From Antedon bifida (Eukaryota; Echinodermata; Crinoidea; Comatulida; Antedonidae), in NCBI GenBank assembly GCA_963402885.1, contig OY727095.1, positions 3,167,001 to 3,231,000 of the forward strand: a stretch of DNA of 64,000 nucleotides, in the 5' to 3' direction. Shown here piece by piece: positions 5,794-60,700 of this stretch (positions are counted from its first letter, which is position 1; each line of letters begins with the position of its first letter). The position numbers and the translations under genes are program-made. The notes beneath the pieces were generated by a model. It was not told where the DNA came from and made no database searches. It saw nothing but the letters and a program-made list of their open reading frames with translations.

Positions 5794-5940
5794 AAAATAT
5801 TCGATAAAGTATGTTTATTGACCAGAGTCAGTGTAATTATATCGATAAGATACAAAACAAAATAAAAACAAATTGCACTTAAGACCAACATAATTGTTGA
5901 GGTAAAATTGCGATCAAATGTAAAAATATAAAATAAATTG
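5592..5940. repeat. Tandem duplication, two copies of about 172 bp
   Basis: Copy 1 (about 5592-5768) and copy 2 (about 5769-5940) each hold the TGTGACGGAAATGAC motif, a TTATTGACCAGAGTCA block, an AATTATATCGATAAGATA block and GGTAAAATTGCGATCAAATG. They differ by small indels. The duplication increases the number of subterminal motifs in this copy. Confidence 0.85.
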
Positions 5941-16894: not shown

Positions 16895-18439
16895 TCACAT
16901 TTTTAACTTGATTCCTCTATTAGCACACTTTCTGACCACAACATTAGCTACTTCACCTGATAGTTTGCAACTAAACATGTACAAGTAAATCAGCTTAGGA
17001 CACTTATTCAAGAAAATACCTAGTAAAGTAGCATCTATGTCACTGATATCATTATACCCAATATTAAGCTCTTGTAATTCTAACTCATCTCTTGCATGCA
17101 TTCCAATCATTTTATTCATTATGTTACCTGATAGTTTGCAAATAGGCATGTATAATTTAACCAGCTTAGGACACTTACTCAAGAAAGTACCTAGTAGAGT
17201 ACAATCTATGCCACTGATATCATTATAACCAATATTAAGCTCTTGTAATTCTAACTTATCTCTTGCATGCGCTCTCATCATTTCATTCATTATGTTACCT
17301 GATAGTTTGCAATTAAACATGAAAACTTTAAAAAGCTTGGGAAACTTACTCAAGAAAATACCCAGTAGAGTACCATCAATGCCACTGATATCATTATAAC
17401 CAATATTAAGCTCTTGTAATTCTAACTCATCTCTTGCATGCACTCTCATCGTTTCATTCATTAAATTACCTGATAGTTTGCAATTAAACATGCCAAGTTT
17501 AACCAGCTTGGGACACTTACTCAAGAAAGTACCTAGTAAAGTACCATCTATGTCACTGATATCATTATTTCCAATATTAAGCTCTTGTAATTCTAACTCA
17601 TCTCTTGCATGCACTCTCATCATTTCATTCATTACGTCACCTGATAGTTTGCAATTATGAATGCCAAGTTTAATCAGCTTGGGACACTTACTCAAGAAAG
17701 TACCTAGTAAAGTACCATCTATGTCATTGATATCATTATACCCAATATAAAGCAATTGTAATTCTAACTCATCTACTGCATGCACTCTCATAATTTCATT
17801 CATTACGTTACCTGATAGTTTGCAATTATGAATGCCAAGTTTAACCAGCTTGGGACACTTACTCAAAAAAGTACCTAGTAAAGTACCATCTATGTCACTG
17901 ATATCATTATTTCCAATATTAAGCTCTTGTAATTCTAACTCATCTACTGCATGCACTCTCATCATTTCATTCATTACATTACCTGATAGTTTGCAATAAT
18001 ACATGCCAAGTTTAACCAGTTTAGGGCACTTACTCAAGAAAGTACCTAGTAAAGTACCATCTATGTCACTGATATCATTATACCCAATATGAAGCTCTTG
18101 TAATTCTAACTCATCTATTGCATGCACTCTCATCATTTCATTCATTACATTACCTGATAGTTTGCAATTATCCATGCAAAGTTTAACCAGCTTAGGACAC
18201 TTACTCAAGAAAGTACTAAATAAAGTACCATCAATGTCACTGATATCATTATTTGCAATATCAAGCTCTTGCAGTTTCAACTCATTTCCTTTATATGTTA
18301 TAATCATATAATTCATTATATTACCAGATAGTTGACAATCATGCATGTCAAGTTTAATCAGGTTAGGCGATGTACTCAAAAACTTACCTAGTAAAACACC
18401 ATCAATGTCACTGAAGTAATTATCACTAATATTTAGAGC
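16895..18439 (-). repeat. NLR1 LRR array: 9 units of 171 bp
   Basis: The 57-codon unit repeats as (EL.IG.NDISDIDGTLLG)(TFLSKCPKLVKL)(...CKLSGNVMNEMM)(RVHA.DELELQ). Unit 1 (most 5') and unit 9 (last, 58 codons) are the most diverged. All central units carry Phe in GTFLSK or GIFLSK. Confidence 0.92.
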
Positions 18440-19962
18440 ATGTAATGTCAACTCAAATCCTCTATAAGAACACTCTCTAATCGTTTCATTCATTACATCA
18501 CCTGTTAGATTGTAATTATGCATGTCAAAGTTAACTACATTAGCAAGGCCTAAAATGTGGGCAAGAACTCGACCTTTGCAGTCGGCTGACACAGTCGTAT
18601 AAAAGCTGCGGAAAAATTGGTCCTGATATGATACATTATCTGTAATCCAATGCTTTAATAATTTATCCGCATCACCACCAAGGAAATTAATTGCAAAATG
18701 TTTTGCGCCCTCTAAATTCTCACTTTCTCTTATCATCTCCCAGTCATCATCTTTCAATTGGGTAAGCAATTCTCGTGTATCCTTTGTGCACTCCACACTT
18801 TCTGCTTCACATAATTTGCACAAGTAAAACCCTACCAATGACTTCCCTATTAATGTATGAAGAGGCATATAAATCACGTCAAAGTTAGATTTTCCAATTG
18901 GTGCATCTCTATAAACAAATCCAAGTTTCAAAGCCAAGTCAACAATATCCTTGTTGGTGTTAAGGTCTTTTTCGTTTATTGAAAGGTGATTTACTTTTAA
19001 GCTGTTAAACATACTTTTCCCTAACAAAATCATACAATTTTCATATTCCAATGGAATATCCTGAAATTGATAGATTTTTTGGTGTTTCTCTTTTCTAAAC
19101 TGATTCAAAATATTAATAAATAATACTTTAGCAATGTCAGCTTTATTATGAGGAAGACTTTGCATATCTTCCCACATATTACAAACTGTGAGAAGAAACA
19201 TGGGGTTGTTGCACAATGACAAAATGTCCGGGTGTTTACGATTCCAAACTTGTTTGCCAATACCCAACTCCTTTCTAAGGGAATTTCCCAATTCTGGTTT
19301 ACCAAAATTCCCAAAGTGTTTGTCAACATACTTTCCTATAGAATCTTCATCAAATCCAACAACTCTTACATGTATATCACTCACTTTAATGAATTCATCA
19401 AGGTTCCCTGACCTTGATGTAAGTATCACAACACTCTTCTCCAGGTTTTCTTTTCTCATCATCATCATTAAGCTTGTATTCTTAAACCTTAATTCCTCTA
19501 AGCCATCTAACATCAACACAACTCTATCCACATGATTTACTATAAATCGTTTAATCAAATTTGAATCAGGTGGAAGATTGGTCTTTGAACTAATATCTTT
19601 AATTTTCAGTTGCTTTACCATCAAATCTAAGATGCCCTCATTTGTATCTAACTCTCTTGCATTCAAAAGGAATACGATTTTACCTTCAAGGGCTTTAATG
19701 GCATTGTATGCTAAGTACCTTAATAAAGTTGTTTTACCAGTACCCATCTCACTCTCTATAAGAACTTTACATGCTGGTTTGGATTTGATAACATTTAACA
19801 TATCCTCTAACGTTATAGGCTTGTTTCTTTTCTTTTCCCAGAATTCCAAATCACTGAAAACTTTATTTACATCAACTACATAATAAGGATTACAAATTTC
19901 TGGTGTAAATTTGTTGATGTTGTGCCACTGGTGTCTATTAAGTAGATACGTTTCTATTTGTT
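16895..19962 (-). CDS. NLR1 terminal exon: NACHT and 9 LRR units
   Basis: Begins after TTTTTTACAG (acceptor 19963-19964), ends at TGA 16895-16897; about 1,022 residues. NACHT: Walker A in ESEMGTGKTTLLRY; Walker B-like VVLMLDGLEEL, with a Glu after the LDGL core; sensor-1-like VVILTSRSGN. The helical/winged-helix part continues to the LRRs (HPDILSLCNNPMFLLTVCNM, a typical NLR stretch). The LRRs are 9 units of 57 residues, each holding two leucine-rich repeats. The frame stays open about 55 nt upstream of the acceptor, so the first Met of the raw ORF (20017) is intronic. Confidence 0.9.
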
Positions 19963-22900
19963 CTGTAAAAAAGAAATAGTCCAAATAACTAGAATAAAAA
20001 ACTAATTCAAAATTCAATCAATGATCACGATATATATCGCTATGATGTTTGTCTAATTATAGAAAAATGTTTATTGTAATTTAATAATGATAGAACATTA
20101 ACCCGCAGAATGTTTGAATTGAACAAATCTAAAACAAGATTCTTTTTCTATAGAAAACGATTACCGGTAATCAATGAACTTACCGTATTACTAAATTAGT
20201 AACAAACAAATAAGTGACAATCTCTTAGTTTTTTGTGAAGTTTTTATGTCTACAATTTAAAAGCAAATTGGGAATAATACTTGTAGTATGCGACCTGGAA
20301 AATTTAATTAAAACAACTTTTCTGCTTTTCTTCTTATAATCCGAGCACAAAGGTTGTGAACTTATTTATATTTAATTAGTACTTGCTATTTCACTTTAGG
20401 CTCTGGTAAAAATATTCAACTGTACTTTTCATGTTCCACTGCCCAAATTGTTTTTAAATATAATCCTATTTTGTCTGTTTATAATCAACAATCACAATAA
20501 TAAACAAACTTAAACAAATTATAACTGCTAATTTGATTCATTAGTTATCAAATGAAAAATTCATTTTTTTTCTTACAATTGTAATGTAAAGTGTGTAAAG
20601 TACAAATACTAATTTCTAAACTTACGCTCTTTAGTTGAATAAAGGTTTTCTTGAAGTTCCTCTTTACGTCTTTCATAATTTTTTAGAAGTTGACCTATGA
20701 ATATAATAAATCAATTGAAAATCTAGCACTGTAATCATGCAAACTACTCAATTAGCCCATATGGTAGTGCTATGCTTAAATATCGTAGTGAAATGACATT
20801 ATCATGTCCATATATGGACCACCACATAAAGTTTGATAGTGTAGACAAGGCTTAAGGGTAGAGGTTGTCTCTCCTCAATGCTCTAAGAATAAAGAATCAA
20901 ATCTCAGTGACTACCACAGTCTATATCTTGTGTGAGACAGGTACATATCCGGGACAGTTGAGATTTGGATTGCATCTGCTCATCTCCAAAATAAGCATAA
21001 TGCATCAAGATTGTGTGTGCTATGCTCATGATCAGAAACAATAAAATGTTGCACTATAATAAAATAATTTATATTCTTAAAACCCACCTTCCTTAGAAAG
21101 ATGTAGTTCTTCTTTTTGCATCCCATGGTCTCCTTTAGCTATCAAAACGAAATTGAGCATCTTATTACAACAATCTTATAAATTGTAAACATTCTTCTAC
21201 AAAAATGTTATGATTGGTCATGACAGGCACTTATGTATTTCAATTTACGGACCTGTATTGTTATTTACAGTATGCATTTTGGTTTTTGGTGTGCACGTTG
21301 TGTATACATTCTATTATTAAATATTACACAGAGCGAAGTGAGGTTTTTTTTTTAAATTTAAAAGTCCAAATTCATTATTTATCTGATATTAGAACTATTA
21401 TTGTAAGGAATTGTTTTCAAATCCTACCTTCAGTTGAAACAAGTAGTATTTCTTCTTTCTGTATTTTACGGCCTCCTACACCTTTCCAAAAATTTCAAAT
21501 ATATCATCTTACTTGGAGCTTCCACAATATTTATTTTTAACATACTATGATTTTTTCCTATCTTTACTTATTCGAAACTTGGTCACAATGATTTATCACC
21601 CAAAATCTTGCAAAAGTTCAATTTTTATCCATCATCTAAGAGTAGTTGAATTTTGTCGTAGGGTCAAAGGTCACAATCCACAAAAACTATTTACAATATA
21701 TTATATACTAGCAATTATACCCGCCCCAGGGCGGGTTTCAAAATTAGTTTGAAGCCTTCTCAGTACATAACACCCGACGCCAGTATCTCTTTATCCTCAC
21801 CAACCTCCACCCCTGTTCAATAACACCCCACACTCTTTTTTAAAAACAAATTCTGTTTTTGTGTGGAAGATTTTTTAGAAATGCTCAAAACGGTCTAAAA
21901 CTGTTTCAAATGCAATTTTAAGCTCTATTCTGTGCACAGCTTCAAATTGAGAGGAGTATACATAGCTATGATAGGGCTATGGTTTAAGTATGTTGTAAAC
22001 TGTGTAAATGAATAGGTGTCATATTGGCTGATGATTGAAATATCTAATTTTGGTAATACGGCCCCCAGCCTTCTTTCTCCTCTAACCATCCCAGCCACAA
22101 ATAACTAACCTTAACTCTACCCCAGGACAGTTCAAAATGTAGTAACTTTTTACCTAGTACAATTCCAATCATATACTTCATTACGCCAGTATTTTTGCTC
22201 CCCCTCATCCCTCCCAACACACCCCAGATACTGGGTGATGTGTTTAAGACGGTTCCAGTACAAATAATGTTAGCCATCACTCCCAACCCATAATCCCTCA
22301 GTGGCAGTTTTCAAATGTAGTTTAAAACATTCCCTGTACAGTTTCCGTCATGGTGATAGGCCTACATCCCCACCCCAAACTCCCATTTCCTTCCCAGTGA
22401 TAATTAAAATACTTTAACAATTTCCTACCACAATTCTGGTCAATTTGATAGCCTACTACCCCTAGCCTAAGCAAAATCCCCACTATCCCTTGAACCCCAA
22501 CCCCACTCTCCCACCAAATCCCCGGACTTTTTGAAATGTAGTTTAAAATCTTCCCGGTACAATTGCGATCATTTTGATACCCCATATGTATGGTTACGTG
22601 CAGAAACAGAAATTTGTATAACGAACAAACATCGAAAGTGGGGAAAAGTGGGCCATTTTGACCACATTTTGGCCCCTAACTTGGATCCTAGATGGCGGAT
22701 GATTTTCAAATGTAGAACATTCCCGGTACAATTGCGGTCATTTTGATACCCCATATTTAAGGTTACGTGCAGTAACAAACAAACAGACAGACGTACAAAC
22801 TCTCTCACTTATAATATAGATATTTCATTGTCTACAGGTCACAGTTTGCTTCAAAACTCTGTTGAACTTAAGGTTCAGAGTAAAATGTCAAGTCACAAAC

Positions 22901-25900
22901 AAACAAAAATGGGTTTTTTTCAGGAGGAAATTTTTATGTAGGAAAAATATATTGAAGGTAGAGTGCCCTCTAGTTATATAAGGAATTGTTTCCAAAACTT
23001 ACCTTCAGTTGACAAAAGTAGTTCTTTCTTCTGCATTTCACGGTCTCCACCTATAAAAAAAAATCAAATACAGTTAGGGTTTTTACAACATTTTTTATAA
23101 ATTCTAAAGCCTGTTTTCCTGTCAACGTTATTTAACGCTATCGTCGTTGATCGTTAAAAGTTCAACGACGATCGTTTGAAAACAATCAAGTTGAAATGAT
23201 AACGATAGCGAATACCTTTTCCTGTAAATCGTGAACATTTCAATGTTTACGTAGAAGATCGCCAATTATTGTTAACGATAGTGTCGAATAACGTCGACAG
23301 GAAAACAGGCTTAATGCTATTCTTGAATGCGTTAAACTTACCTTTACTTATAATCTCTTTAAGTTTTTCTTTAAGCGATTCATAGTGCCTTAGTAAATCT
23401 ATAAAAGACATCAAATAAAATGGTATCAAGTTTTTTACAAGCTCTTTTGAAGTTCTTTTTGATTATTTCATTATTTTTCTTTTATTGTATTTTAACATAT
23501 GATACATGTGATGAATACACTTTTATTGTACTTTACTTTTAATAATACATTTTTATGAATGTATTATTGCCATTTGATTGATTGATTTCATATCATGTGT
23601 TGTGCATGTGAATAATACACAATTAAAAAGTATGCAACTTCTAAAACCGCTCAATTGTTTTTCCACTTTTGTCTTAAACAGAATGCCAAAGGCCAGGTTT
23701 TCAGACACTTTATATTTGTATATAGGCCAGCTGCTTTAAAAGTAATATTATTTTTAACATGGATCCAACCGCAAGAAACTCACAAATTACAGGACGTAAC
23801 TATAATTTATAATGCTTATAAACATGTAAATAATAATAATAATAATAATAATATCTTAATGTTGTGAAATCGGATCTAGGCTAGTTTCCCCTGGACATTT
23901 TACCCCCGGACATTCCCCTAAACCCCCTCCCCCCGGTATTTTTCCCCTGGACCGTAGCCTCCTAGTACTAGTACTGTTTCTATAAAACTCTTAATTTAAC
24001 AATATTCCCGCAATATTAATGAGAGATATGTACGTGAAAATGTGATATTTTCTGTTCAAATTGATACCAAATTAGACCGATTAGGAGTAACTGTTTAGAT
24101 TTTACAATCAAAGATCATTATTCGCTATGCAAAGGTGTAAATTTATAAATCGTGGACTTCACCATGCGAAAGATTATTTAGTGAAAAGGAATGTATTTTA
24201 AACTCGTGACATTGTCAATGTTCATGTACCTCAATGATCCATGGTTAGGACAGTGCCATGACACCTGGAAATTTCAAATTGATTTTCATCAAGACAAGTT
24301 CATAGTTGATAAAACTAAGCCGTCAGAAAGATAGATGCACTATTAGACTAAACAACATACATGACAAATGTAAGTACAGACACTATTCCAACTTTCCCTT
24401 CCAACATCAAAATCAGTAGGTGAGAGGATGAATTCCCCGTATGGGTAATGCATCCTCTCACCACCAGAATCCTTCATCAACAACAGTCATCCTCCAAGCA
24501 CAGGAACATTAAAACAAAATGATGTGCAAAACAGTTCAAGACATGTACCAGTACATTGAAATCCCTTCTACAGCATGCCTTCAACATTTCATTTTGCTAA
24601 CACCTTCATCTTTAAATTATTGTGGGCCACAACATCTATAAAGTTAGCCCCTTTCATCTGGCCAGACGCAACACATGGCATCTATCTCTAGTTCCGAAAA
24701 ACTCTGGGTCATAATTAAATGCTGGAGTAAAGCAAGTATATGTGTACCAAATAAAATGCAAACAACCAAATAACAAGGATACTTAAGTGTGTTAAAATAA
24801 TTAGTGTATATGTTTTATGACTCACCTTCTGTTTCAGAAAGTTCTTCTTCTTGATTTTGCTTACGATTTTCATTGAGTCTTAATAAACCTGTAATAATAA
24901 AAATATAATTTATTATTTAAAAATTGTTAATGCTTTCTTATTACTGTACAGTAGTAGCTAGATCAACTTTCGTATGCACGTCTTTGAGGTCCAGAGAATT
25001 TGACTTCAGAAATTGGTTTAGGATGGTCAAACAATCATTTTTGGCTTGGTTACACATTTTGAAAATGTGGCAAAAGGTCAAGGTGAAAGGTTATAAGACC
25101 AAAACACCAATAGGTCCTTACAACCACTGGTCACAACAAGGTAATTTTGCATTCATATTCAGTCTAATAGGACATTTTGGTCAAAAATGACCGGAAATTA
25201 CATTTTTGACCTTTGAGTTACACTCATCACTAATGCAATAGCCAGTCCACAAACCATTTTTTTTATACCAAATATAGTTTGTTAGTTGTTCTAATAATAA
25301 TTTGTTTCTAAATGATGACTCACGTTCAGTTTCAGCAAGTTCTTCTTCAAGTTCTTGTTTACGACCTGCATAGAAACTTATTGAACCTGATAAAACAAAT
25401 CACATTGAACTTTCAATAATGGTTGTCAATTAAAACAATTGTTTTCAGCAATGATTGTCATTGTGATTATAGACACTATTACTATTATTTTCATTTAAAT
25501 GGACCAATATTTTTACTTACCTTCAAGAGATTTTATTTCTTGTTCAATATCAGTCGTGTTGGAGTATGTTTGTGCAGCTAATAAAAAATCATATAGAACT
25601 TTTTAATTATGACTTTTACATAAACACTTAAAAAACTATATGGTGTGCTTGTAAATTCTAAATTATTTTTAATTTAACATAAATAACACTTTCCATATAC
25701 ATTTTTTTAAGCCTGGCAGTGAAGGCGTTTTTTAGTTAGTTATGTATTATGTATTAGAAGGACTACTTTGAATTACCAGGTGGCTTGCTGGATTAATGGG
25801 TTTAGTATTGTGAGAAATAAATGGAAAGACGACTTGCAACTTATGTTTCTGCGTAATTCATAATCCTTGGTTATCTTGTAGCAAATTGTAACCAGATTTG

Positions 25901-34707: not shown

Positions 34708-34726
34708 TTCATTGCAATTTGGTTTT
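34164..34726 (-). CDS. NLR1 exon 1: tandem DED-like N-terminus
   Basis: ATG at 34707; an earlier ATG 8 nt upstream is out of frame. Translated from MAELNDKFDDLKANLN. Residues about 5-90 read like a death-effector domain (short helices; ELFNKLELKGYITPTNVSLL resembles the helix 4-5 region of FADD and caspase-8 DEDs). Residues about 105-180 (LSPYRKCLFKAL... through ESNGELADDDYKI) look like a second, more diverged copy. DEDs pair with other DEDs such as those of FADD or caspase-8. Coding ends at donor GATAGAG|GTAACA (34164), phase 1. A run of T then AG (34727-34728) precedes the ATG by 19 nt, so this exon is probably exon 2 of the mRNA. Confidence 0.7.
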
Positions 34727-39730: not shown

Positions 39731-39993
39731 TAAAATGTGTATAATTCTGCCACCTAATTTACAAAATGTTGTCCAATTGGATTATACACAAATGTTCAAT
39801 TGTTGCATTTTTGTACATATCAATGGTAATCAATGTTGTAATCATTACATTACTAGTAGCTAACTTGAAACATTTGTTCTGTATAATGTTATTATAATTT
39901 GTTTAGCCTCATCATGCATGTTAAATGTTGTTGCTTTAATGTATGAAAATAAAGCATCTTATTTTCAGATACAAAGTTGTGTTATTTTATTTT

Positions 39994-40620
39994 GTTTTGG
40001 TTCAATCAATCTCAATTGGAATGACCTATGATCTACAACTATGCATATGTTATTGGTTGTCCTAGACTTGCCCCATGTCTGTAGGTATTGTCTTTTGGTT
40101 CAATCACTCTGGTTTAGAATGACCTAGGATCTACAACTATGTATATTGCATAGGGTTATTGGTTGTCCTAGACTTGCCCCAAGTCTGTAGTTATTGTCTT
40201 TTGGTTCAATCACTCTGAATTGGAATGACCTAGGATCTACAACTATGTATATTGCATAGTGTTATTGGTTGTCCTAGACTTGCCCCAAGTCTGTAGTTAT
40301 TGTCTTTTGGTTCAATCACTCAGAATTGGAATGACCTATGATCTACAACTATGTATATTGCATAGTGTTATTGGTTGTCCTAGACTTGCCCCAAGTCTGT
40401 AGTTATTGTCTTTTGGTTCAATCACTCTGGTTTAGAATGACCTAGGATCTACAACTATGTATATTGCATAGGGTTATTGGTTGTCCTAGACTTGCCCCAT
40501 GTCTGTAGGTATTGTCTTTTGGTTCAATCACTCTGAATTAGAATGACCTAGGATCTACAACTATGTATATTGCATAGTGTTTTTGGTTGTCATAGACTTA
40601 CCCCAAGTCTGGAGTTATTG
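39994..40620. repeat. 106-bp minisatellite, six copies
   Basis: Unit starts TCTTTTGGTTCAATCACTCT and includes ATGACCTAGGATCTACAACT and TTGTCCTAGACTTGCCCC. Copies start at about 39994, 40091, 40197, 40302, 40409 and 40515. The first is shorter (97 bp) and most diverged; the others are highly similar. No spacers, so not CRISPR. Confidence 0.92.
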
Positions 40621-40986
40621 TCTTTTTCATGTTAGTCCATCAGTTGGCGTTTCAATTTTTGTCTGGATTTTTCAAGCTCAAGTATTATACGTATGAAACA
40701 GAGACTAGAACCTATACTACTCAATGTACATGCATGCACATAATGAATTTACTATGACATAACTAGTTCCTAATATTGTTCCAAATTGCTGATTTGGTTG
40801 ATTTGCCTCCTTTCCAATTAGTTGTTTTCGATGTTAATTATCTAACTATAGTTACTAACCCTAAACCTCTACAGGGTAATGTACGGTGGTGAGTCTCCAG
40901 CGGTAGTTGTCTAAATGCGAAAGCTTCATTAATTTGCCAACATACTGTACATGGAATATCATAGCTTATATTTTAAACCAGGTATT

Positions 40987-42594: not shown

Positions 42595-45500
42595 TTACAT
42601 TATAAAAATGATTCTTCTCTTATTACACGCTCTGACCACAATATTAGCTACATAATTTGATAGTTTGCAATTAGAAATGTCAAGTTTAACCATCTTAGAA
42701 CACTTACTCAAGTAAGTACCTAGTAAAGTACCATCTATGTCATTGATATCATTATTCCCAATATCAAGCTCTTGTAATTCTAACTCATCTCTTGCATGCA
42801 CTCTCATCATTTCATTCATTACGTTACCTGATAGTTTGCAATTATCAATGTAAAGTTTAACCAGCTTAGGACACTTACTCAAGTAAGTACCTAGTAAAGT
42901 ACCATCTATGTCACTGATATCATTATTCCCAATATCAAGCTCTTGTAATTGTAACTCATCTCCTGCATGCAATCTCATCATTTCATTCATTACGTTACCT
43001 GATAGCTGGCAATTAAACATGTCAAGTTTAACCAGCTTAGGACACTTACTCAAGTAAGTACCTTGTAAAGTACCATCTATGTCACTGATATCATTATTCC
43101 CAATATCAAGCTCTTGTAATTCTAACTCATCTCTTGCATGCACTCTCACCATTTCATTCATTACGTCACCTGATAGGTTGCAATTATACATGTAAAGTTT
43201 AACCAGCTTAGGACACTTACTCAAGTAAGTACCTAGTAAAGTACCATCTATGTCACTGATATCATTATTCCCAATATCAAGCTCTTGTAATTCTAACTCA
43301 TCTCTTGCATGCACTCTCATCATTTCATTCATTACGTTACCTGATAGTTCGCAATCATTAATGTAAAGTTTAACCAGCTTAGGACACTTACTCAAGTAAG
43401 TACCTAGTAAAGTACCATCTATGTCACTGATATCATTATTCCCAATATCAAGCTCTTGTAATTCTAACTCATCTCTTGCATGCACTCTCATCATTTCATT
43501 CATTACGTTACCTGATAGTTCGCAATTAGACATGTACATTTTAACCAGCTTAGGACACTTACTCAAGTAAGTACCTAGTAAAGTACCATCTATGTCACTG
43601 ATATCATTATTCCTAATATTAAGCTCTTGTAATTCTAACTCATCTCTTGCATGAACTCTCATCATTTCATTCATTACGTTACCTGATAGTTTGCAATTAG
43701 ACATGTAAAGTTTAACCAGCTTAGGACACTTACTCAAGTAAGTACCTAGTAAAGTACCATCTATGTCACTGATATCATTATTCCCAATATCAAGCTCTTG
43801 TAATTCTAACTCATGTCTTGCATGAACTCTCATCCTTTCATTCATTACGTTACCTGATAGTTTGCAATTAGACATGCCAAGTTTAACCAACTTAGGACAC
43901 TTACTCAAGTAAGTACCTAGTAAAGTACCATCTATGTCACTGATATCATTATTCCCAATATCAAGCTCTTGTAATTCTAACTCATCTCTTGCATACACTC
44001 TCATCATTTCTTTCATTACATTACCCGATAGTTTGCAATTAGACAAGTAAAGTTTAACCAGCTTAGGAAACTTACTCAAGTAAGTACCTAGTAAAGTACC
44101 ATCTATGTCACTGATATCATTATTCCCAATATCAAGCTCTTGTAATTCTAACTCATCTCCTGCATACACTCTCATCATTTCTTTCATTACATTACCCGAT
44201 AGTTTGCAATTAGACAAGTAAAGTTTAACCAGCTTAGGAAACTTACTCAAGTACCTACCTAGTAAAGTACCATCTATGTCACTGATATCATTATTCCCAA
44301 TATAAAGCTCTTGTAATTCTAACTCATCTCTTGCATGCACTCTCACCATTTCATTCATTACATTACCTGATAGTTTGCAATTATACATGCCAAGTTTAAC
44401 CAGCTTAGGACACTTACTCAAGTAAGTACCTAGTAAAGTACCATCTATGTCACTGATATCATTATTCGAAATAGAAAGCTCTTGTAATTCTAACTCCTCT
44501 CCTGCATGTGCTCTCATCATTTCATTCATTACGTTACCGGATAGTTTGCAATTAGGCATGTAAAGTTTAACCAGCTTAGGACACTTACTCAAGTAAGTAT
44601 CTAGTAAAGCACCATCTATATCACTGATATCATTATTTGCAATATCAAGCTCTTGTAATTCTAACTCCTCTCCTGCATGTGCTCTCATCATTTCATTCAT
44701 TACGTTACCAGATAGTTTGCAATTAGGCATGTAAAGTTTAACCAGCTTAGGACACTTACTCAAGTAAGTACCTAGTAAAGTACCATCTATGCCACTGATA
44801 TCATTATTCTTAATATTAAGCACTTGTAATTCTAACTTATCTCTTGCATGCACTCTCATCATTTCATTCATTACGTTACCGGATAGTTTGCAATTATGAA
44901 TGTAAAGTTCAACCAGCTTAGGACACTTACTCAAGTAAGTACCTAGTAAAGTACCATCTATGTCACTGATATCATTATTCCAAATAGAAAGCTCTTGTAA
45001 TTGTAACTCATTTCTTGCATGCACTCTCATCATTTCATTCATTACGTTACCTGATAGCTGGCAATTAAACATGTGAAGTTTAACCAGCTTAGGACACTTA
45101 CTCAAGTAAGTACCTAGTAAAGTACCATCTATGTCACTGATATCATTATTCCAAATAGCAAGCTCTTGTAATTCTAACTCATCTCTTGCATGCACTCTCA
45201 TCATTTCATTCATTACATTACCTGATAGTTTGCAACTAGACATGTAAAGTTTAACCAGCTTAGGACACTTACTCAAGTAAGTACCTAGTAAAGTATCATC
45301 TATGTGAATGATATCGTTATTTCCAATATCAAGCTCTTGTAATTCTAACTTATCTACTGCATGCACTCTCATCATTTCATTCATTATGGTACCTGAAAGT
45401 TTGCAACTAGACATGTAAAGTTTAACCAGCTTAGGACACTTACTCAAGTAAGTACCTAGTAAAGCACCATCTATGTCACTGATATCATTAAGCCCAATAC

Positions 45501-48500
45501 CAAGCTCTTGTAATTCTAACTCATCTACTGCATGCACTCTTATCATTTCATTCATTACGTTACCCGACAGTTTGCAATTATACATGCCAAGTTTAACCAG
45601 CTTAGGACACTTACTCAAGTAAGTACCTAGTAAAGTACCATCTATGTCACTGATATCATTATTCCTAATATCAAGCTCTTGTAATTCTAACTCATTTCTT
45701 GCATGCACTATCATCATTTCATTCATTACGTTACCTAATAGTTTGCAATCATTCATGATAAGTTTAACCAGCTTAGGACACTTACTCAAGTAAGTACCTA
45801 GTAAAGCACCATCTATATCACTGATATCATTATTCCCAATATTAAGCTCTTGTAATTGTAACTCATCTCCTGCATGCAGTCTCATCATTTCATTCATTAC
45901 ATTACCTGATAGTTTGCAACTAGACATGTAAAGTTTAACCAGCTTAGGACACTTACTCAAGTAAGTACCTAGTAAAGCACCATCTATGTCACTGATATCA
46001 TTATTCCCAATATCAAGCTCTTGTAATTCTAACTCATCTCTTGCATGCACTGTCATCATTTCATTCATTACGTTACCTGATAGTTTGCAATTATACATGC
46101 GAAGTTTAACCAGCTTAGGACACTTACTCAAGTAAGTACTTAGTAAAGCACCATCTATGTCACTGATATCATTATTCCCAATACTAAGCTCTTGTAATTC
46201 TAACTCATCTCTTGCATGCAATCTCATCATTTCATTCATTACGTTACCTGATAGTTTGCAATCATCAATGTAAAGTTTAACCAGCTTAGGACACTTACTC
46301 AAGTAAGTACCTAGTAAAGCACCATCTATGTCACTGATATCATTAAGCCCAATATCAAGCTCTTGTAATTCTAACTCATCTCTTGCATGCACTCTCATCA
46401 TTTCATTCATTACATTACCTGATAGTTTGCAATTATACATGGCAAGTTTAACCAGCTTAGGACACTTACTCAAGTAAGTACCTAGTAAAGTACCATCTAT
46501 GTCATTGATACCATTATTCCTAATATCAAGCTCTTGTAATTCTAACTCATCTCTTGCATGCACTCTCATCATTTCATTCATTACGTTACCTGATAGTTTG
46601 CAATTATCAATGTAAAGTTTAACCAGCTTAGGACACTTACTCAAGTAAGTACCTAGTAAAGTACCATCTATGTCACTGATATCATTATTCCCAATACTAA
46701 GCTCTTGTAATTCTAACTCATCTCTTGCATGCACTCTGATCATTTCATTCATTACGTTACCTGATAGTTTGCAATTATACATGCCAAGTTTAACCAGCTT
46801 AGAACACTTACTCAAGAAAGTACCTAGTAAAGTACCATCTATGTAACTGATATCATTATTCCCAATATCAAGCTCTTGTAATTCTAAATCATCTCTTGCA
46901 TGCACTTTTATCATTTCATTCATTACATTACCTGATAGTTTGCAATTATACATGCCAAGTTTAACCAGCTTAGGACACTTACTCAAGAAAGTACCTAGTA
47001 AAGTACCATCTATGTCACTGATATCATTATTTGCAATATCAAGCTCTTGCAATCGCAACTCATTTCCTTTATATGTTAGAATCATATAATTCATTATATT
47101 ACCTGATAGTTGACAATCATGCATGCCAAGTTTAATCAGGTTAGGCGATGTACTCAAAAACTTACCTAGTAAAACACCATCAATGTCACTGAAGTAATTA
47201 TCACTAATATTTAGAGCATGTAATGTCAACGCAAATCCTTTATAGCACTCTCTAATCGTTTCATTCATTACATCACCTGTTAGATTGGAATTATGCATGT
47301 CAAAGTTAACTACATTAGCAAGGCCTAAAATGTGGGCAAGAACTGGTCCTTTGCTGTCGGCTGACACAGTCATATAAAAACTGCGGAAAAATTGGTCCTG
47401 ATATGATACATTATTTGTAATCCAATGCTTTAATAATTTATCAGCATCACCACCAAGGAAATTAATTGCAAAATTTTTTGCCCCCTCTAAATTCTCACTT
47501 TCTCTTATTATCTGCCAGTCATCATCACTTAATTGGGTAAGCAATTCTTGTGTATCCTTTGTGCACTCCACACTTTCTGCTTCACATAATTTGCACAAGT
47601 AAAATCCTACCAATGACTCTCCTATTAATTTATTAAGAGGCATGTAAATCACTTCAAAGTTAGATTTTTCAATTGATGCATCTCTATAAACAAATCCAAG
47701 TTTCAAAGCTAAGTCAACATTATCTTTGTTGGCGTTAAGATCTTTTTCGTTTATTGAAAGGTGATTTACTTTTAAGCTGTTAAACATACTTTTCCCCAAC
47801 AAAATCATAGCATTTTCATATTCCAATGGAATTTCCTGAAATTGAGAGATTTTTGGGTGTTTCTCTTTTCCAAACTGATTCAAAATATTAATAAATAATA
47901 CTTTAGCAATGTCAGCTTTATTATGAGGAAGACTTCGCATATCTTCCCACATAATACAAACTGTGAGTAGAAACATGGGGTTGTTGCACAATGACAAAAT
48001 GTCAGGGTGTTTACGATTCCAAACTTGTTTGCCAATACCCAATTCCTTTTTAAGGGAATTTCCCAATTCTGGTTTACCAAAATATCCAAAGTGTTTGTCA
48101 ACATACTTTCCTATAGAATCTTCACCAAATCCAGCAACTCTTACATGTATATCACTCACTTTCATAAATTCATCAAGGTTCCCCGATCTTGAGGTAAGTA
48201 TCACAACACTCTTCTCCAGGTTTTCTTTTCTCAACATTGTAATTAAGCTTGTATTCTTAAACCTTAATTCTTCTAAGCCATCTAACATTAACACAACTTT
48301 ATCCACATGATTTACTATGAATCGTTTAATCAAATTTGAATCAGGTGGAAGATTGGTCTTTGAACTAATTTCTTTCATTTTCAGTTGCTTTACCATCAAA
48401 TCTAAGATTCCCTCGTTTGTATCTAACTTTCTTGCATTCAAAAGGAATACGATTTTACCTTTAAGGGCTTTAATCGTCTCCTTGGCATTGTATGCTAAGT

Positions 48501-48746
48501 ACCTTAATAAAGTCGTTTTACCAGTACCCATCTGACTCTCTATAAGAACTTTACATGCCGGTATGTATTTGATAACATTTAACATACCATCTAATGTTAT
48601 TGGCTCATTTCTTTTCTTTTCCCAGAATTCCAAATCACTGAAAACATTATTTACATCAACTACATAACCAGGATTACAAATTTCTGGCGTAAATTTGTTG
48701 ATGTTGTGCCCCTGGTGTCTATTAAGTAGATACGTTTCTATTTGTT
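42595..48746 (-). CDS. NLR2 terminal exon: NACHT and 27 LRR units
   Basis: Begins after TTTTTTACAG (acceptor AG 48747-48748), 6,152 nt, about 2,050 residues, no stop until 42595-42597. Walker A ESQMGTGKTTLLRY, Walker B-like VVLMLDGLEEL, sensor-like VVILTSRSGN, and HPDILSLCNNPMFLLTVCIM match NLR1 almost residue for residue. NLR2 has three extra residues (KET) after the P-loop helix and one fewer before the LRRs. The raw ORF start at 48633 is an internal TTG, not a true start. Few intact receptors carry so long an uninterrupted LRR exon. Confidence 0.92.
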
Positions 48747-51700
48747 CTGTAAAAAAGAAATAGTATTAATTAATCAAAATTCAATAAATGATCATAAAGG
48801 TATGACTACATGACACAATATGTCAACAAAAATCTAAAATGGGGTTCTTTTTATATAGAAAATGTTTGCAAACTATTTATCAATAAACTTATCATATTCC
48901 TAATTTAGTCACCTAATTTAGTTTAGTTTTTGTGAAGTTTTATATTACCAGTTTCAACACAAATTGGGAATAATACTTGTAGTATGCGACCTGTAAATGT
49001 TTTAAATAAAACAACCTTTTCTGTGCTTCTCTTCTTATAGTCTGGGTGCCCGCCCGTAACATATGATTTCACCCCATTCCACCCAGAAGGTTTGACCCCT
49101 TAATGTTAATACTATCAAAGACATTTAAAAAAAGACTAGTCTCCAGATCCTCTTGAAACCCCCCACCCCCTCCCAAAAACAGTTTATTTCACCCCATCTC
49201 ATCTATGGACCAAAATTGGTACAAACATAGAAGTGTGTGAAGACATAACAAAAAAACCAAAACTGACGAAATATCAGGTCGGAAAGGTCATGTCAGCTGC
49301 CCTAAAATATCCCCCTTCACGTTAATTTCAACCCATGTCATTCATACCAAAATCAGTAAAAACATAATATAGTACGTCTCACATATCAAAAAGTCAGAAA
49401 CTGCCAAAATACCAGGTTGTAAAGGTCATGTCAGAGCCTCTTACAGTTCCATTCCCTTCTACCTCGGCACACCTCCCCACCCCACGTGCCTTATTAAATG
49501 TCATTACGGTTTTACACAATATATTTTTGTCTCATACAATCTACCCTTTTCAACCTCTAAAATTTCTATACGGAATGTTAATACTAGTAATTGTCTTTCT
49601 ATAATTTTTTACATTTCAATTAAATTATTTTCAATTATGGAAAGGTCATGCCAGACCCTCCTAATTATCACCTCATCTCACCCAATTTGATTCCAACCTA
49701 CTGTGTCAATACATAACAAAAACTGACAAAATATTACGTCAGACCACCTTTAAGTCACCGCCTTTTAAATACGTTAATTTCACCCTTACCCATGAACAAA
49801 ATTGATATTGTGTCAATACATAACAAACAAAAACTGACAAAATATCTGGGCGGAAAGGTTATGTAAAAACCCCTTAAATCCCCTTCCCCCCTCTAAAACA
49901 CATCCCGGTTGATTTCTAGGATCCTTTTTATGTATAGGATTTGAAAATAAAAAACTGTACAATCTCACAAGTGTGTACGATCTGGGTCAATAGTCATTCA
50001 TATAAACTAGTATTGTATTTACACTGTAAAATATAAATAATAATGATTTTGTTTAGTTTTGTCATTCTGAATGTCATTTTTGTCACTTTAGGTATCTTAT
50101 GTGCTCAACTTGAATTGTTTATATATTCTACGATTGCATCAAATAAAACAACTTCAATACTACACTACTATGTAGTATAGCTAGTTTCAAGTAGAGGTTT
50201 AATCCGAAATATTCTCTTCTGGTACCATTACAACTTGTTCACATCGTTTGTTATCTTGCTGTCAAAAACCTGGTTGATGGTCAACTCTTTGAGTCTGACT
50301 TTGACTGTCTTGTGCATAGAAATGGCACACCTGAGGACTGGATATTCCAGTTTTAGTTTGTGAGATCATGGATTAAGGAATAGAAGGATATGCATCGACG
50401 GTGACATCAAATGATTTTCCAACGCGCTTGCCTATACTAAAGCACTGTTGCCAATAAAACAAACACACTCATTGAACTCTGTGTCTCTAACCGTGGCCCT
50501 CTATAGAACGCTGCGAATCAACTGTTACATAACGTAGCCATGTAGAAATCGTATGCGCAGTCTGATTGTTCTATTGACATGTCTGCGTCGATGATTAATT
50601 GACAACAATTCTGTTTTAATGTCATCACAATCGGACTACGACCAGTAATTTTAAGTAGTTGGTAAATATGCAATTTTTATATTTGAATTATCATATTGGC
50701 CTGCATGCCACTTCCTGTCATTAAAAATAGAATTTTAAATTAAGCATTTGACCATGTATGTTGTTACTGTGTCTTCTGGTGTCAAGTACAACAAACATTT
50801 TTTTAATATATGGCTAAGCAGTGGTTTCTTCATAAATCTCCTTAATTATCAATGTGATTATATTTAAATTGTAGTGCCTGGTGATTGGCTAGTGGTTATG
50901 TCATCCACATCACATCCAATCACCGGGCCTAATCGAATGAAAACTTGGATCTTTAATCCGGGATTGACTGGCTATGTACACCACTGACTCTACTACTCTC
51001 TAGCGCTCGTTTTGAAAAGTAGACGCAAGGCAAAGTTAACCATGAACAAACAAAGCATAAAAGTACCTTGCTGTATTATTATTCCCACAAGAAGTAGACA
51101 ACGGTGAGTATATAGATCTTGATTAAACGTTGTAGTAGCTACTACACTTAAGATTAGCCTACCAATAGGCCTACAGTACCTAGGCCTATCAATGTCGGAA
51201 GTCATACGGTTTACAAGTAAGCTAATATCCTTGCTGATTTTGTAATTTTACATGTAGACTGAGACAACTAGTTGTCTCAGATGTAGGGCGACTACAGGTC
51301 ATAAAATGCGACTTTAAGGTCATAAAAACATTAGCGTAGATCAATCGCGGCAGATTTCGAACATTTGCAAAATTAATGTTTTTTTAAACCCAATAGCCTG
51401 GGTGCAGAACAGTTAATATACACATTTGCGGGAAAAAAGTATAGGAAAATTTTTTTGTAATTTTTCTGATAGAGTATACCATATAGAATGTCAGAAAAAA
51501 AATCCCCATCCCAGGGTCTTGGGGAAAATTTGTTACGGCACTTTTAAATTTTGGCCTATATAACGCACACAAATTCCTATTAACACACACAAATACCAAT
51601 ATATAGGGGATAGGGAAAATCAATTAACGGTTTTTGTTACTTGCAGTTGTGTTTTAATGATTAAAATTAGTAGAGGCTTACTTTAATAACTACTTCTCAT

Positions 51701-54700: not shown

Positions 54701-57700
54701 ATAGGATGGCATACATCAACATTTTCCGATTGTATGTTAACATACGTGCATGTTTTAAAAATATTAATGTCAATAAAATTATAAAAATGATCACCTATAA
54801 TTCGTCAAAGTGACGAATTAAATTCTAGTTTTAGTTTAGTTTTGGTTTAGGACTTGAAAAGGAGGTGTGCCGAGGTAGAAAGGAATGGAACCATAAGAGG
54901 CTCTGACATGACCTTTACAACCTGGTATTTTGTCAGTGTCTGACTTTTTGGTATGTGATATGTACTATACTACAATGTTTTACCAATTTTATATGGATGA
55001 CGTGGGTTAAAACGTTTTTGTCTGTTTATTATCAACAAACATAAACAAATTCATTAGTCATCAAATGAAAAATTATGTTTGTGTTATCAATTTCATTTAA
55101 AGCTAATAAAAATTTAATGGAATGTGGTTTATAAAATTAAGTTTATAAAATACTGATTTCTAAACTTACGCTCTTTACTTGAATAAAGGTTTTCTTGAAG
55201 TTCCTCTTTAAAGTTTACATAATTTTTTGGAAGTTCACCTATGAAAATAATAAATTATTGCTTTTACGACAATTAAAAAGCTATCCTTTAAAAAAAAATA
55301 ATAAAAAAATGTACTTTGATCATGCAAACTACTGTACTTAATTTTAATAGTAGTATACTGGAGAGGGGAAGAGGTTGTCTTTACAATGCTCTTTGAAAAA
55401 GGAAGAAAAAAATCTCATTGACTTCCAGTCTACTGGTGAGGTACATATCCAAGATTTGGATTGCTTCAGCTATTAAACATACCATGTACCATGATTAGAA
55501 AAAATGAAATGTTGCCCAATAATAAAATTCCTTCCTTGAAAAGATCCCATGGTCTCCTTTAGCTATCCAAAACCAAATTGAGAATCTTATTACAACAATC
55601 TTATAAATTGTAAACATTTTTTAAATAAAATAAACAAATATTTATGATTGGTCACTAAATGCATTTCAATTTATGGATCTGTTTTGTTATTCCCAGTATG
55701 CATTATGGTTTTTAGTGCGCACGTTGTGTACACATTCCATTATTACATAAATTAAGATATTAGAACTAGGTGATTAATATAAGGAATTGTTTTCAAATCC
55801 TACCTTCAGTTGAAACAAGTAGTATTTCTTCTTTCTGTATTTCACGGTCTCCTACACCTATCCAAAAAATCAAATACAGCATCTGTTTTTCCAAAACTTG
55901 GGTAAAGGTCAAGTTTACGACCCACAAAATACAAATCTTTTATATTTACCGCCTAGGCCAAATTTTTTATCGGAATCTTGCCACACTTGGCCACAACTAC
56001 ATTTCACTCGTTTTTAGTGCAATCATGGAGTTTATTTTTATACCTCCATGGTGCAATTAAGCTTATTCACACACAAGACACAAAACACATTTTTATCAAT
56101 ATGTAGGAAAATTTTACTAAAAGTGGAGTGACCTCTCTAGTTATAAGTACTTTATTTTGCATTTCACGGTCACCTACACCTAAGGTTAGGGTTTTTACAA
56201 TATTTTTTATTCAATGCTATTCTGGAATGTGTTAAACTTACCTTTACTTATAATCTCTTCAAGTTTTTCTTTAAGTGATACATAGTGCCTCAGTAAACCT
56301 ATCAAAAGACATAACATAAAACATTTTATTTATAGTTGCTTCTATTCTTTTTGATGTCCCGTTCATTATTTATCTTTTATTGCATTTAGCCCATGTAATT
56401 TTTTATGATGGATAAACATAAATTGTACTTTATGTGTACTTTAGTTTTAAGTATTTATAAGAAACTTTTATAAAAACACCTAAAGTGTATCCTTGCCATA
56501 TGATTGATCAATTTCATATCAAATTAATTATTTTCTCCTGTTTCATGTTGTGTGTCATAGTAAGCTGGTGAATAATGCACAATGAAAAATATCTAAAACT
56601 GCTAAATTATTTTGCTATCTTTTGCTCCTATCTTAAATACAATGCAAGGTAAATTTAAGTTCAACTCTCTGAATGGAGACTTTATTTGTAACAGTTGCCT
56701 TAAAATATCTTTTAGAATTTTTTTTAAATACACATCCAACAGCAAGTAAATGTTTACAAAATTAACAATAGTACACCCAACATGAAATCAACCAACCAAA
56801 TAGCAAAGGTACACTTATGTGTTTTAAAAATAATTACTAGATATGACTCACCTTCGATTTCATAAAGTTCTTCTTCTTGATTTTGTTTATGACCTGTTAA
56901 AATGATTTATTTACAAATGTTAATGCTATATTTAATGTATAGAAGAATGTTTATGATTGGTTAACAGCAATAATTTATGTTTTCATAACAATGGTGGTTT
57001 TTTTATTTAATTAGATTCTATTAATTACTAAATGATGATGACTCACGTTCAGTTTCAGCAAGTTCTTCTTCAAGTTCTTGTTTACGACCTGCATGGAAGC
57101 TTATTGAACCTGATCAAACAAATTAACCCTATATGCTTAGTACTTTGTTACCGCCTGTGTTTAGTATGGTTCACACACATAATGACTATTTAAACTTTAT
57201 TACTGCAGTTATTAAAAGAGGTAGCAGTGTAATAAACTATCCATGATTTTTAAATAATTTAGGTTATTGACACCCGCTAGATGTTCGGAAATGGTACTCT
57301 TGCACATCAAATTTATGATAGTCCAGTTGGCCCGGAAATCAGCAAAACGATCATGCTTTTTCCGACGGTAAATACAGTGACGTAACACTTTTTGTGCATG
57401 TTAGAGATGCGTGTTCTGTGTGGGAACTGTTTATTGTTTTGCTTTGCGTTCAATGTGTATAGTATAGTATTTTTGTTCAGAGGTAAAAAAGACTGTTCAA
57501 ATTTAGGGCGGACTAAAGCCTGTTTAGCCTCCGCGTAAATCCGCATCTGATTTCCACATTTCAAACAAGTAAGCAAAGTCAAATGTTTTAATTGTAAACA
57601 CACCAGAAATTCATCAAATATGCCAGGACAAATATTCGGTGAGCAATACCATACAAAACACAAAATTGGTTTCGCTTAAAATTGATTCAAAATTTGGACT

Positions 57701-60700
57701 CATTTTTGGACAAGTTTCTCTTTTGGAGGTAAAATTCCCATGATGCAAATTGTATTTCTTGTGGCTAAACGACAGGTTTAGTCTTGTGCTACACATATAG
57801 CCTTGCATACATTTAAAATTTTACTAACTAACTAACTAATATTTTTCCTACCTTTAACAGATTTTATTTCTTGTTCAATATCAGTCGTGTCAGAGTATGT
57901 TTGTGCAGCTAATAAAAAATCATATAGATCTTAATTATGACTTTTACATTAAATATTAAACTATAGGGGGTGTAAAAGAAATTGTTATTTATCAACAAAT
58001 ATAAACCTACACCTGCTGCTTTTATTTAAAAAATATTATGCAAAATAAATACCATATATAATATGGTATTTTCTAAATACTATTATCATTTCAAAATTAA
58101 TTAATTAAATTTCAGTATATCACTGGGCGGTTTAGAATTAATGTTCTGTGCCTGATTTGTGTATATATATATATATATATATAAATCCAAAGGCAAATTA
58201 CTGAAAAAAATGACAATGCTGTGGGTATCAGTGGCTGGATCTCAATGGAGATACAAATAAAAAAGCGAAAAGCTAAATCAAAACGATAAAGTAAACAGCC
58301 AGAAAAGTTAGCAGAGCTTTCGGGCAACACTAGCCCTTCATCAGTGCAAGTGAGGGAATTTGGATAAAGTCATAGCATATGAGTTGGCAATATATACCAT
58401 ATATATATATGGTATATTTTTGGCAGCAGAAATGGTTCTTGAAAGAGATTACCGTATAAAATATACTATATTTTGCTCACCAAATGTGTGAATAAAATAT
58501 GGTACTCATAAATTTATACGCTATTTCGTGTCTGTACAACTTTTACTGGTTAAAATGGAATGCAGTTATGTGGGTTTTGTCAAGATTATGGTAGGCATTT
58601 GGGGTTTGGTTTTTTACAGGAGCCTTCAGCACTTTGGGGGATATTTGCACTTAACAAATCTTGCATTGCTATTGCTATTAGATCTCACCACTTTTTGATC
58701 CAACACTTTTCAGATCAGACACCGTGTAACATCCACTATCAGAAGCAGCTACATCTTCAGGATCTAAAAAAACTAATTTGAAAACAATATATAATTAATA
58801 ACAGTAAACCTCCATAGAAACGGCTCAAAAAACAATAAATTTCTGTTGTATTTAAACTTTCTAGACACATTTTCATCGCCGCTCAACACAGCAAATTTGT
58901 AATGGAACCTGTCATTGTTGTTAGCGAGGCCTGAAGTCGCGCCGATCATCTTTTGCTTCCGGTGCGCAAAATCTAATGACACTCACAAGCATAAAATAGT
59001 GAACTTATTTAGTATCTCACCACTTTTTGATCCAACACTTTTTGATCCAACACTTTTTCCTATATCAGAGAGTGTGTAACGTCCACTTTCAGAAGCAGCT
59101 GGTTTAGATATAAAATATTTAAAAAAACATATATAATAACAAAGATTCTTCATATTAGCAATTTAAAGATAATGAGTCACTATTCAATAGTCTCTTCAAC
59201 AATCACCAATAAAGCAGAATTTAAAGAGTTTCTTTGTAGACTATAACTTTAAAGACACTATCTCTGCAATGTTTGAGGAGTCTTGTCTTAAATACAGCCT
59301 TAGCTAGGCCTAGTCTGGCATTTTCTTGTTGTTTAATTAATTATCTTTCGTTTTTTGGCAGAATCTGGTAATACAAATCGGGGAGGACCTGGTATTTCTG
59401 CTGAAATCGTACTCCAAGAGGCAAAACAAAAATATCAATATATGATGCATGCTGGTATTTATAGCGGGCAACTAAAATTATTAAAATCGACGCAATAGTC
59501 CATATTTATTTTAAAATAAAATGCAGTTTGTGACCTTAAATTAGATCCAAAAAATGTAGGGATAGTGTCTTTAAGCTCTTTATAAATTATTAACAAAATC
59601 AACCTTGTTAATGTTACATAATACTTTTAAACATACCTGGATGTGGACTTAATGATTTTTCCGATGTTCCAACTTTATCTATAAAAAGTTCAGATCTTTT
59701 TATTATTATTTATTATTAAAACTTTGTCTATTTATGCACTTATTACTTTGTAACACATCCAAGTGAATTCTTGCCATTTGATTGTGTATCACATGCCATG
59801 CTTCCTTACACGATTAGGAGAGCATTGCACATTTAAGTTTTTGGGAAGGTTTTTAAAATGTTGTGCAATGCTCTAAACCTTGTGAATGATTCACGATAGA
59901 AAGCCAACCTATGGTGGGCGTTGTTTAAACCTCTCCACCCCTGCAGACAAATTCTAAGCTTACCTTAGAACAGTAGGTGTATAAAATGACGAAAATACAT
60001 GTTTTCATTGAGATCCACACCCTTTGTGGAACTATAAAGGAGATGGTAATCCTAATTTTTTAATTTACTTGGCCATGAGGATGTCGCAATATCCCATAGG
60101 CGAAAATTGCACATAAATCCATATCTGCAATTCATTGGCTTCTACAATAATATAAAAAAAACCATTTGAGAAGGAATCAAATTTAGGATGCGGAGTAGAA
60201 TAAATAGATTCAGAATGAATAAAAGGTAGATTTGATTATGATTGAAAGGTAGGTCTGGGATAGGCAGGATATTTGTTTTTTTATAACATCTAAAGGAGGT
60301 ATTTACCATTTTATAGGTTTTAAACTTTCTTTGAAGACTTTAATTGAGTTATCCACATCATTTTCAAACTTAGTCGGCTCAAAAAACAATCACATATTTA
60401 GGCTTTCTACAATATGTCAGCCAAGTTGTACCTTAAGCTCTATATAACCAACTGACCACATTTGATATGTTTTTTTGGTGTGTTTTTAGTCTGCATTATC
60501 ATGTAAATGTTACAATGTCATCGTCTTTCATCAGAAAGAAGCAACTGTTGTTGGGAAATTTGGTCGCGTCCGGTCTTGTTGTTATGTTGTTGTTAAGGGA
60601 TGTGACGTTGCACGGTCTTCCACAAAAAATAGTTCACTTATTTTGTATATGACCCACAATCATCCAAATTTTGAGGTGTTATATAAATGATTTCTAATAT

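Follow-up and report, generated by a model that had tools for sequence, protein, structure and literature searches.

The 64,000-nucleotide stretch of the crinoid Antedon bifida analysed here (assembly GCA_963402885.1, contig OY727095.1, forward-strand positions 3,167,001 to 3,231,000; hereafter the window, whose own coordinates are used throughout) carries two paralogous genes of the NOD-like receptor (NLR) type. The last exon of gene 2 encodes a NACHT domain followed by a long array of leucine-rich repeats (LRRs), and gene 1, about 23 kb away, follows an identical plan with fewer repeats (Table 1). Domain content places gene 2 in the NLR family: the NACHT matches to PF05729 reach 54.9 and 49.6 bits against a curated Pfam cut-off of 26.7, and an LRR solenoid forms the C-terminal part. 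The closest protein matches are NLR-like proteins of crinoids, from Antedon mediterranea (P0001, 84% over 77% of gene 1) and Anneissia japonica. The gene 2 exon is preceded by an acceptor-like TTTTTTACAG, and a TTG-started open reading frame (ORF) within it spans 42595-48633 on the minus strand. Between the two genes the NACHT part has evolved under purifying selection (dN 0.045, dS 0.120 over 503 codons). The array is the subject of this report: it probably forms the recognition arm of this crinoid receptor, built of shuffled LRR modules and subject to diversifying selection at putative ligand-binding residues of a predicted inner face.

Table 1. The two NLR genes of the window and their parts. 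Codon k of gene 2 unit i starts at 47223-171(i-1)-3(k-1).
Feature	Coordinates	Strand	Remarks
Gene 2, last and largest exon (NACHT + 27-unit LRR array)	42595..48747	-	open from TTTTTTACAG acceptor to stop
Gene 2, NACHT domain	48088..48549	-	PF05729, E=1.2e-14; ORF residues 29-182
Gene 2, array of 27 units of 171 bp	42607..47223	-	57 aa = 28 + 29 aa LRR pair; indel-free
Gene 2, unit 1, N-terminal cap	47053..47223	-	
Gene 2, units 2-26, 25 core units	42778..47052	-	variable codons 5, 7, 8, 33, 35, 36
Gene 2, unit 27, C-terminal cap	42607..42777	-	
Gene 1 (paralogue), last exon (NACHT + 9 units)	16895..19963	-	
Gene 1, NACHT domain	19310..19765	-	PF05729, E=5.1e-13; ORF residues 85-236
Gene 1, array of 9 units	16907..18445	-	7 core + 2 caps
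Gene 1, possible upstream exon	20576..20695	-	tblastn to P0001 residues 144-180, 72.5% over 40 aa, E=4e-9
Gene 1, possible upstream exon piece	21086..21139	-	P0001 residues 127-144, 18 aa, 100%, E=2e-5
Gene 1, possible upstream exon	25501..25578	-	P0001 residues 13-38, 69% over 26 aa, E=5e-6
Gene 2, possible upstream exon	55144..55239	-	P0001 residues 144-175, 66% over 32 aa, E=8e-5
Gene 2, possible upstream exon	57850..57909	-	P0001 residues 13-32, 85% over 20 aa, E=8e-5

Each unit comprises two ribonuclease-inhibitor-type LRRs, of 28 and 29 residues. We number codons from the first L of LxxLxLxxN; the numbering of the original prediction, made earlier from the same DNA, begins two residues later. 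That prediction described a constant framework with changeable positions 3, 5-6, 31 and 33-34, and this was borne out: in our numbering these are codons 5, 7-8, 33 and 35-36, and they are six of the eight codons, out of 57, with the highest proportion of non-synonymous differences (pN), the remaining two being 53 and 50. The six correspond to x5, x7 and x8 of each strand. Mean entropy at these positions was 1.54 bits in gene 2, where the other positions averaged 0.30 (P=0.00015); the corresponding values for gene 1 were 1.38 and 0.31 (P=9e-5). For the core units we pooled 32 of the 36 units, leaving out the four caps, each at least 38 nt from every core unit. Across these 32, L1, L4, I6, N9 and C37 are invariant at the amino acid level, while codon 33 specifies nine amino acids through nine codons that all end in C, codon 35 seven through seven codons ending in T, and codon 5 seven through eight codons, again ending in T. 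The earlier claim that the x positions of LxxLxLxxN vary thus applies to three of the five, since x2 and x3 are conserved and nearly fixed. Mean pairwise amino acid identity is 84.6% among the core units of gene 2 (minimum 75.4%) and 80.2% in gene 1. As a separate observation, x3 is Glu in the first strand (codon 3) of 30 of the 32 core units and Lys in the second strand (codon 31) of 31; this alternation along the sheet is a possible salt-bridge ladder next to the variable positions.

The original prediction had assigned the variable residues to the beta-strands, and the structure model agrees in placing them on the strands or directly behind them. It puts strands at unit residues 3-5 and 31-33 and helices at 16-24 and 41-50, with x5 on the strand and x7 and x8 just behind it; codon 50 falls at a helix end and codon 53 in the loop toward the next strand. 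The alternation of 28- and 29-residue A and B LRRs, each a strand plus a helix, is that of the ribonuclease inhibitor (RI) type, and the sequence matches chicken RI with E=9.4e-14. We do not claim that the protein is a ribonuclease inhibitor proper, and the NACHT context argues against it.

Arrays of this kind occur in other crinoid proteins. Strong self-similarity, defined as at least 200 57-residue windows more than 50% identical, was found with a best lag of 57-60 residues in 14 of the 62 homologues examined. Thirteen of these were cut into units (P0052 was left out) and two, P0017 and P0027, were dropped for having too few, leaving 11 arrays, each analysed against its own consensus; the measure is entropy at the protein level rather than dN/dS. 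Positions 7, 33, 35 and 5 were the four that varied most in P0002. With the strand x positions defined as x2, x3, x5, x7 and x8, a definition chosen post hoc, variability was higher there in nine of the 11 arrays (P<0.05) and in six after Bonferroni correction. The exact variable positions seem to shift along the strand from gene to gene.

We next consider whether the six codons are under selection. The core units were fitted with the MG94xHKY model, in which all codons had a common synonymous rate and the base frequencies were those of the NACHT region. On the maximum-likelihood (ML) tree (kappa 2.4), omega was 4.97 at the six codons and 0.82 at the other 51; on a star tree the values were 6.35 and 0.73. 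Five of the six codons were without any synonymous change. Pairwise counts within gene 2, taken relative to the proportion of synonymous differences (pS) of all codons, gave 4.89 and 0.76. We also counted minimum events with each distinct codon counted once, so that copying between units could not inflate the counts: there were 33 non-synonymous and 2 synonymous events at the six codons, compared with 61 and 28 among the remaining 51 codons (Fisher P=0.0014), and the six codons on their own departed from the neutral expectation with P=0.003-0.016 for kappa 2-4. In line with the prediction, dN/dS clearly exceeds 1 for the six codons and stays under 1 for the framework. All three approaches agree on this, as do the neutral simulations described below, and diversifying selection at x5, x7 and x8 of each LRR is supported. 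Per-site likelihood-ratio tests (LRTs) are treated as secondary, because recombination may inflate such tests on a single tree. On the ML tree the six codons had values of 4.2-37, and only 50 and 53 besides them exceeded 3.84. With the star tree, codons 22, 34 and 53 did so as well, and 50 did not. After Bonferroni correction for 57 sites (LRT of about 11.1), codons 5, 33, 35 and 53 held on both trees, and codon 7 equalled the limit on the ML tree (11.1).

An alternative that we consider improbable is relaxed constraint, by which young tandem copies would drift at the surface while the core is constrained, with no positive selection. The framework omega is itself high (0.7-0.8), quick early divergence of repeats is described as general (PMC5120217), and an IQ-TREE fit to the six codons, taken up below, shows no preference for omega above 1. 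Relaxation, however, cannot lift dN above dS, and under a shared synonymous rate omega at the six codons is 5-6; strand positions x2 and x3, moreover, are conserved. In 5,000 simulations of a neutral array (omega of 1 at the six codons, 0 to 1 conversion per mutation step), calibrated at pS 0.066-0.098 against an observed 0.063, no run matched the observed ratio, pN or distinct-codon count, and the highest ratio was 4.20. An earlier set (4 x 250 runs), poorly calibrated at pS 0.13-0.38, reached the ratio in 0 of 1,000 runs; the pN and the distinct-codon count were reached in up to 44% and 80%, respectively, of the runs of one setting.

Several observations weigh against selection at an inner face. 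The selection result depends on a synonymous rate common to all codons, an assumption that is reasonable for gene 2, since its pS is 0.070 at the six codons and 0.063 elsewhere. In an IQ-TREE fit restricted to the six codons, which were given a rate and frequencies of their own and rescaled branch lengths, the likelihood was -327.36 whether omega was free or fixed at 1 (framework codons: -930.65 free, -932.75 fixed). We set this fit aside because it takes the synonymous rate and frequencies from the six codons themselves and absorbs the excess as added tree length (13.3 vs 2.6); the result carries weight if a shared rate is not accepted, and it slightly lowers our confidence in the preferred reading. 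The neutral comparison of the six codons gives P=0.066 at kappa 1. Gene 1 on its own (seven units) is weaker, with a ratio of 1.96 relative to the pS of all codons and of 1.31 when the six codons' own pS is used (Fisher P=0.11). Selection had been expected to be confined to the concave face, which fits the six codons, on or directly behind the strands, but codon 53 (LRT 19-21) and, weakly, codon 50 are selected outside it, and the star tree adds 22 and 34. The inner face itself is a predicted location, deduced for the six codons from strand position and the LRR fold. Among the relatives, x5, x7 and x8 taken by themselves are significant in just five of the 11 arrays (P<0.05), and P0048 and P0051 have no excess at strand positions even under the wider, post hoc definition. 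Finally, the sequence of the window is that of a single haplotype.

The variability might in principle stem from mutation, the six codons being hotspots of a targeted process, either adenine-directed, as in diversity-generating retroelements (with third bases T or C), or a deaminase. Codons 5, 8, 33, 35 and 36 do vary at bases 1 and 2 with base 3 constant, an NNY-like pattern. The changed copies at bases 1, 2 and 3 of the six codons numbered 57, 46 and 8 of 192, the third-base changes all being in codon 7, which is GGG-based; the framework counts were 64, 41 and 62 of 1632. Third bases thus change at an ordinary rate at the six codons (4.2% vs 3.8%), which argues against a mutational hotspot. 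At framework third positions the changed copies were 17/512 for A, 19/352 for G, 13/160 for C and 13/608 for T; adenine is not the preferred target, which argues against an adenine-directed mechanism, and the adenine-specific substitution that marks diversity-generating retroelements was not seen at these positions. Of 24 ORFs of at least 100 aa, 12 were scanned with Pfam, and the sole reverse transcriptase (RT) among them sits in a putative Gypsy-like retrotransposon (no template-repeat search was made); its ORF, 13351-14514, bears RNase H and is followed by an integrase. On the base-by-base counts we rejected both adenine-directed mutagenesis and a regional hotspot, and targeted mutagenesis is highly improbable.

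The units also carry traces of recombination. In the PHI test on gene 2, none of 2,000 permutations was as low with windows of 20, 40 or 60 nt, indicating recombination inside units; with all 32 units the results were 0, 0 and P=0.005. Units with a common 33-36 set show no greater similarity in the remainder of their sequence (P=0.37). In gene 2, 13 first-strand and 16 second-strand sets are combined in 24 distinct ways over the 25 core units. Neighbouring units resemble each other in the framework more than random pairs do (P=0.0014), with no such excess at the six codons (P=0.25). The sets recur exactly as the original prediction had listed them (YMSS in units 8, 11 and 12; GMYN in 2, 3, 10 and 17; YIDN in 4 and 26), and it had taken this as a sign of shuffling. 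Recurrence of identical 33-36 sets is slightly above column shuffling (13 pairs vs 6.8, P=0.049), and five of the 13 pairs lie in adjacent units where 1.03 are expected (P=0.002), so local duplication contributes beside exchange at a distance. Shuffling therefore stands on the PHI test and on the sets common to otherwise dissimilar units, while the repeated sets are partly local duplicates. At codon 22 a framework change can be seen to have spread through the array: the residue is Phe in all gene 1 units and in units 1-3 of gene 2 but Tyr from unit 4 to unit 27, as either duplication or conversion would produce. Taken together, the tests support recombination within units and the spread of framework changes along the array.

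None of the second-strand sets of the seven gene 1 core units is present in gene 2, and the unit number is 27, 9 or 5 among paralogues and relatives. The first units of the two genes differ at 5 of 171 nt and are at least 43 nt from the core units, unit 1 of gene 2 being 44 nt or more from those of either gene; unit 27 of gene 2 is at least 38 nt from any core unit, its nearest neighbour being gene 1 unit 9 (31 nt). Since the caps are so distinct from the core, turnover of the array seems to take place between stable ends. Comparison of the C-terminal caps (16907-17077 and 42607-42777) gave dN 0.26 and dS 0.03 over 57 codons, an excess of amino acid change there too. Units 4 and 26 of gene 2 differ at just 2 of 171 nt, and near-identical repeats can misassemble, leaving the array length or unit order partly wrong. 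Such an artefact is very unlikely, in view of the frame open across 27 units, the presence of both caps, the 24 distinct combinations in 25 core units and the arrays of like kind in other crinoid proteins.

The reading that we prefer, a recognition arm of shuffled and selected modules, would work as follows. A 171-bp in-frame minisatellite within one exon supplies 27 two-LRR modules, predicted to stack into a ribonuclease-inhibitor-type solenoid behind the NACHT ATPase switch. Germ-line unequal crossing-over and gene conversion would cause gain, loss and re-assortment of units, allowing the length of the array and its pattern of exposed residues to change fast while the fold is kept. The exposed residues would bind proteins or other ligands, most likely microbial or otherwise non-self, and binding would release the NACHT switch. 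The immune role is inferred from the family and the selection pattern, and expanded NLR families serve most commonly in immune sensing. This counts against a different target of the same selection, namely allorecognition, gamete or oocyte functions, or contacts between receptor copies; several top Foldseek matches are oocyte NLRPs, and the nearest anatomical analogue, the hnwd genes of Podospora anserina, serves non-self recognition (PMC2873952). The present analysis holds nothing specific in favour of a non-pathogen target, which we regard as unlikely, if less so than the other alternatives. Going further, and only tentatively, we suggest that crinoids may possess a germ-line NLR repertoire of single-exon LRR minisatellites that recombine fast, individuals differing in array length and concave-face pattern; it might be an animal counterpart of fungal allorecognition NLRs, in which as many as 54 LRRs would build a long superhelix and not one horseshoe. 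If the preferred reading is true, three exact codons per LRR become candidate specificity residues, and receptor diversity in antibody-less invertebrates becomes directly testable in one gene.

The remaining features of the window can be listed briefly. Upstream of both genes, evidence for an N-terminal signalling domain (CARD, PYD, DED or Death) consists of just the short pieces resembling the P0001 N-terminus (Table 1). Between the genes, ORF 34135-34716 (minus strand) is 42% similar to residues 5-167 of P0002, the DED-bearing N-terminal part of crinoid NLRs; its own DED match (PF01335) is weak (E=0.0019, below the cut-off) and it is assignable to neither gene; it may be a relic, or else a first exon. 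Also between the genes lies a tandem array at 39987-40626 (106-bp unit, 6.1 copies, 92% matches), within which there is no ORF of at least 100 aa. Two-copy tandem duplications are found at 5594-5939 (174 bp, 92% matches) and 51951-52295 (179 bp, 91%). The retrotransposon at 13.4-16.3 kb, which we have taken for Gypsy-like, has a 5S rRNA-like sequence at 14795-14911 (plus strand; Rfam RF00001, 56 bits, E=4.5e-9) between its RT/RNase H and integrase ORFs. A fragment at 27460-27819 (plus strand) has weak similarity to the transposase-associated family DUF4371 (E=3.9e-7, below the cut-off).

Among known systems, ribonuclease inhibitor and the LRRs of vertebrate NLRP and NLRC proteins share the 57-residue A/B LRR pair and the horseshoe fold with the crinoid gene, but their repeats have diverged among themselves. 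Vertebrate NLRPs have roughly one unit per exon, whereas all 27 units of gene 2 lie in one exon. It is the concave region of RI that binds RNase A (PMC13298494). The highly variable NLRs (hvNLRs) of plants resemble the crinoid array in having high-entropy residues on the LRR surface through variable LxxLxLxx positions (PMC8226289), although their diversity is among alleles and that described here is among units of one gene. Zebrafish NLR-B30.2 proteins are likewise expanded animal NLRs with gene conversion and positive selection, but the proposed diversified recognition module is the B30.2 domain, not the LRR (PMC4852459).

Parallels in anatomy lie outside the animal NLRs. The Podospora hnwd genes (NACHT-WD40; HET-D, HET-E and HET-R), which function in non-self recognition (PMC2873952), are NLRs with highly alike tandem repeats in concerted evolution, in which two codon pairs per repeat are positively selected at the predicted interaction surface (PMC2873952, PMC4986451); they differ in being fungal WD40 propellers, the crinoid gene having RI-type LRRs in an animal. 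By definition, the repeats of fungal high-internal-conservation (HiC) NLRs are more than 85% identical over at least 100 aa, and LRR motifs were not found in the fungal NLRs covered by that source (PMC4986451). Gene 2 narrowly misses this threshold (84.6% vs 85%) and has the HiC-type feature of positively selected repeat codons at a predicted binding surface; it would work like the fungal family without being a member. In the Vat cluster of melon (R65aa), the LRR region of an NLR contains nearly perfect tandem repeats, in 1-7 copies, with non-synonymous single-nucleotide polymorphisms commoner at unit codons 25 to 35 (PMC8012345); this is a plant NLR with 65-aa units and far lower copy number, and the likeness is one of anatomy. 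The zinc-finger array of PRDM9, described as a rapidly evolving minisatellite (PMC8925151), also consists of tandem coding repeats whose DNA-contacting positions are positively selected, with a within-protein dN/dS of 2.7 (PMC5120217), in a mammalian meiotic DNA-binding regulator rather than a receptor. No report of a comparable animal LRR array appeared among the matches listed (titles and starts of abstracts, subscription papers being outside the scope). The design of conserved frame, selected contacts and shuffled modules known from fungal WD40, ANK and TPR NLRs, Vat and PRDM9 would, if our reading is true, extend to the LRRs of animal NLRs, and the crinoid array is a new animal LRR version of the theme known from Podospora NLRs, melon Vat and PRDM9.

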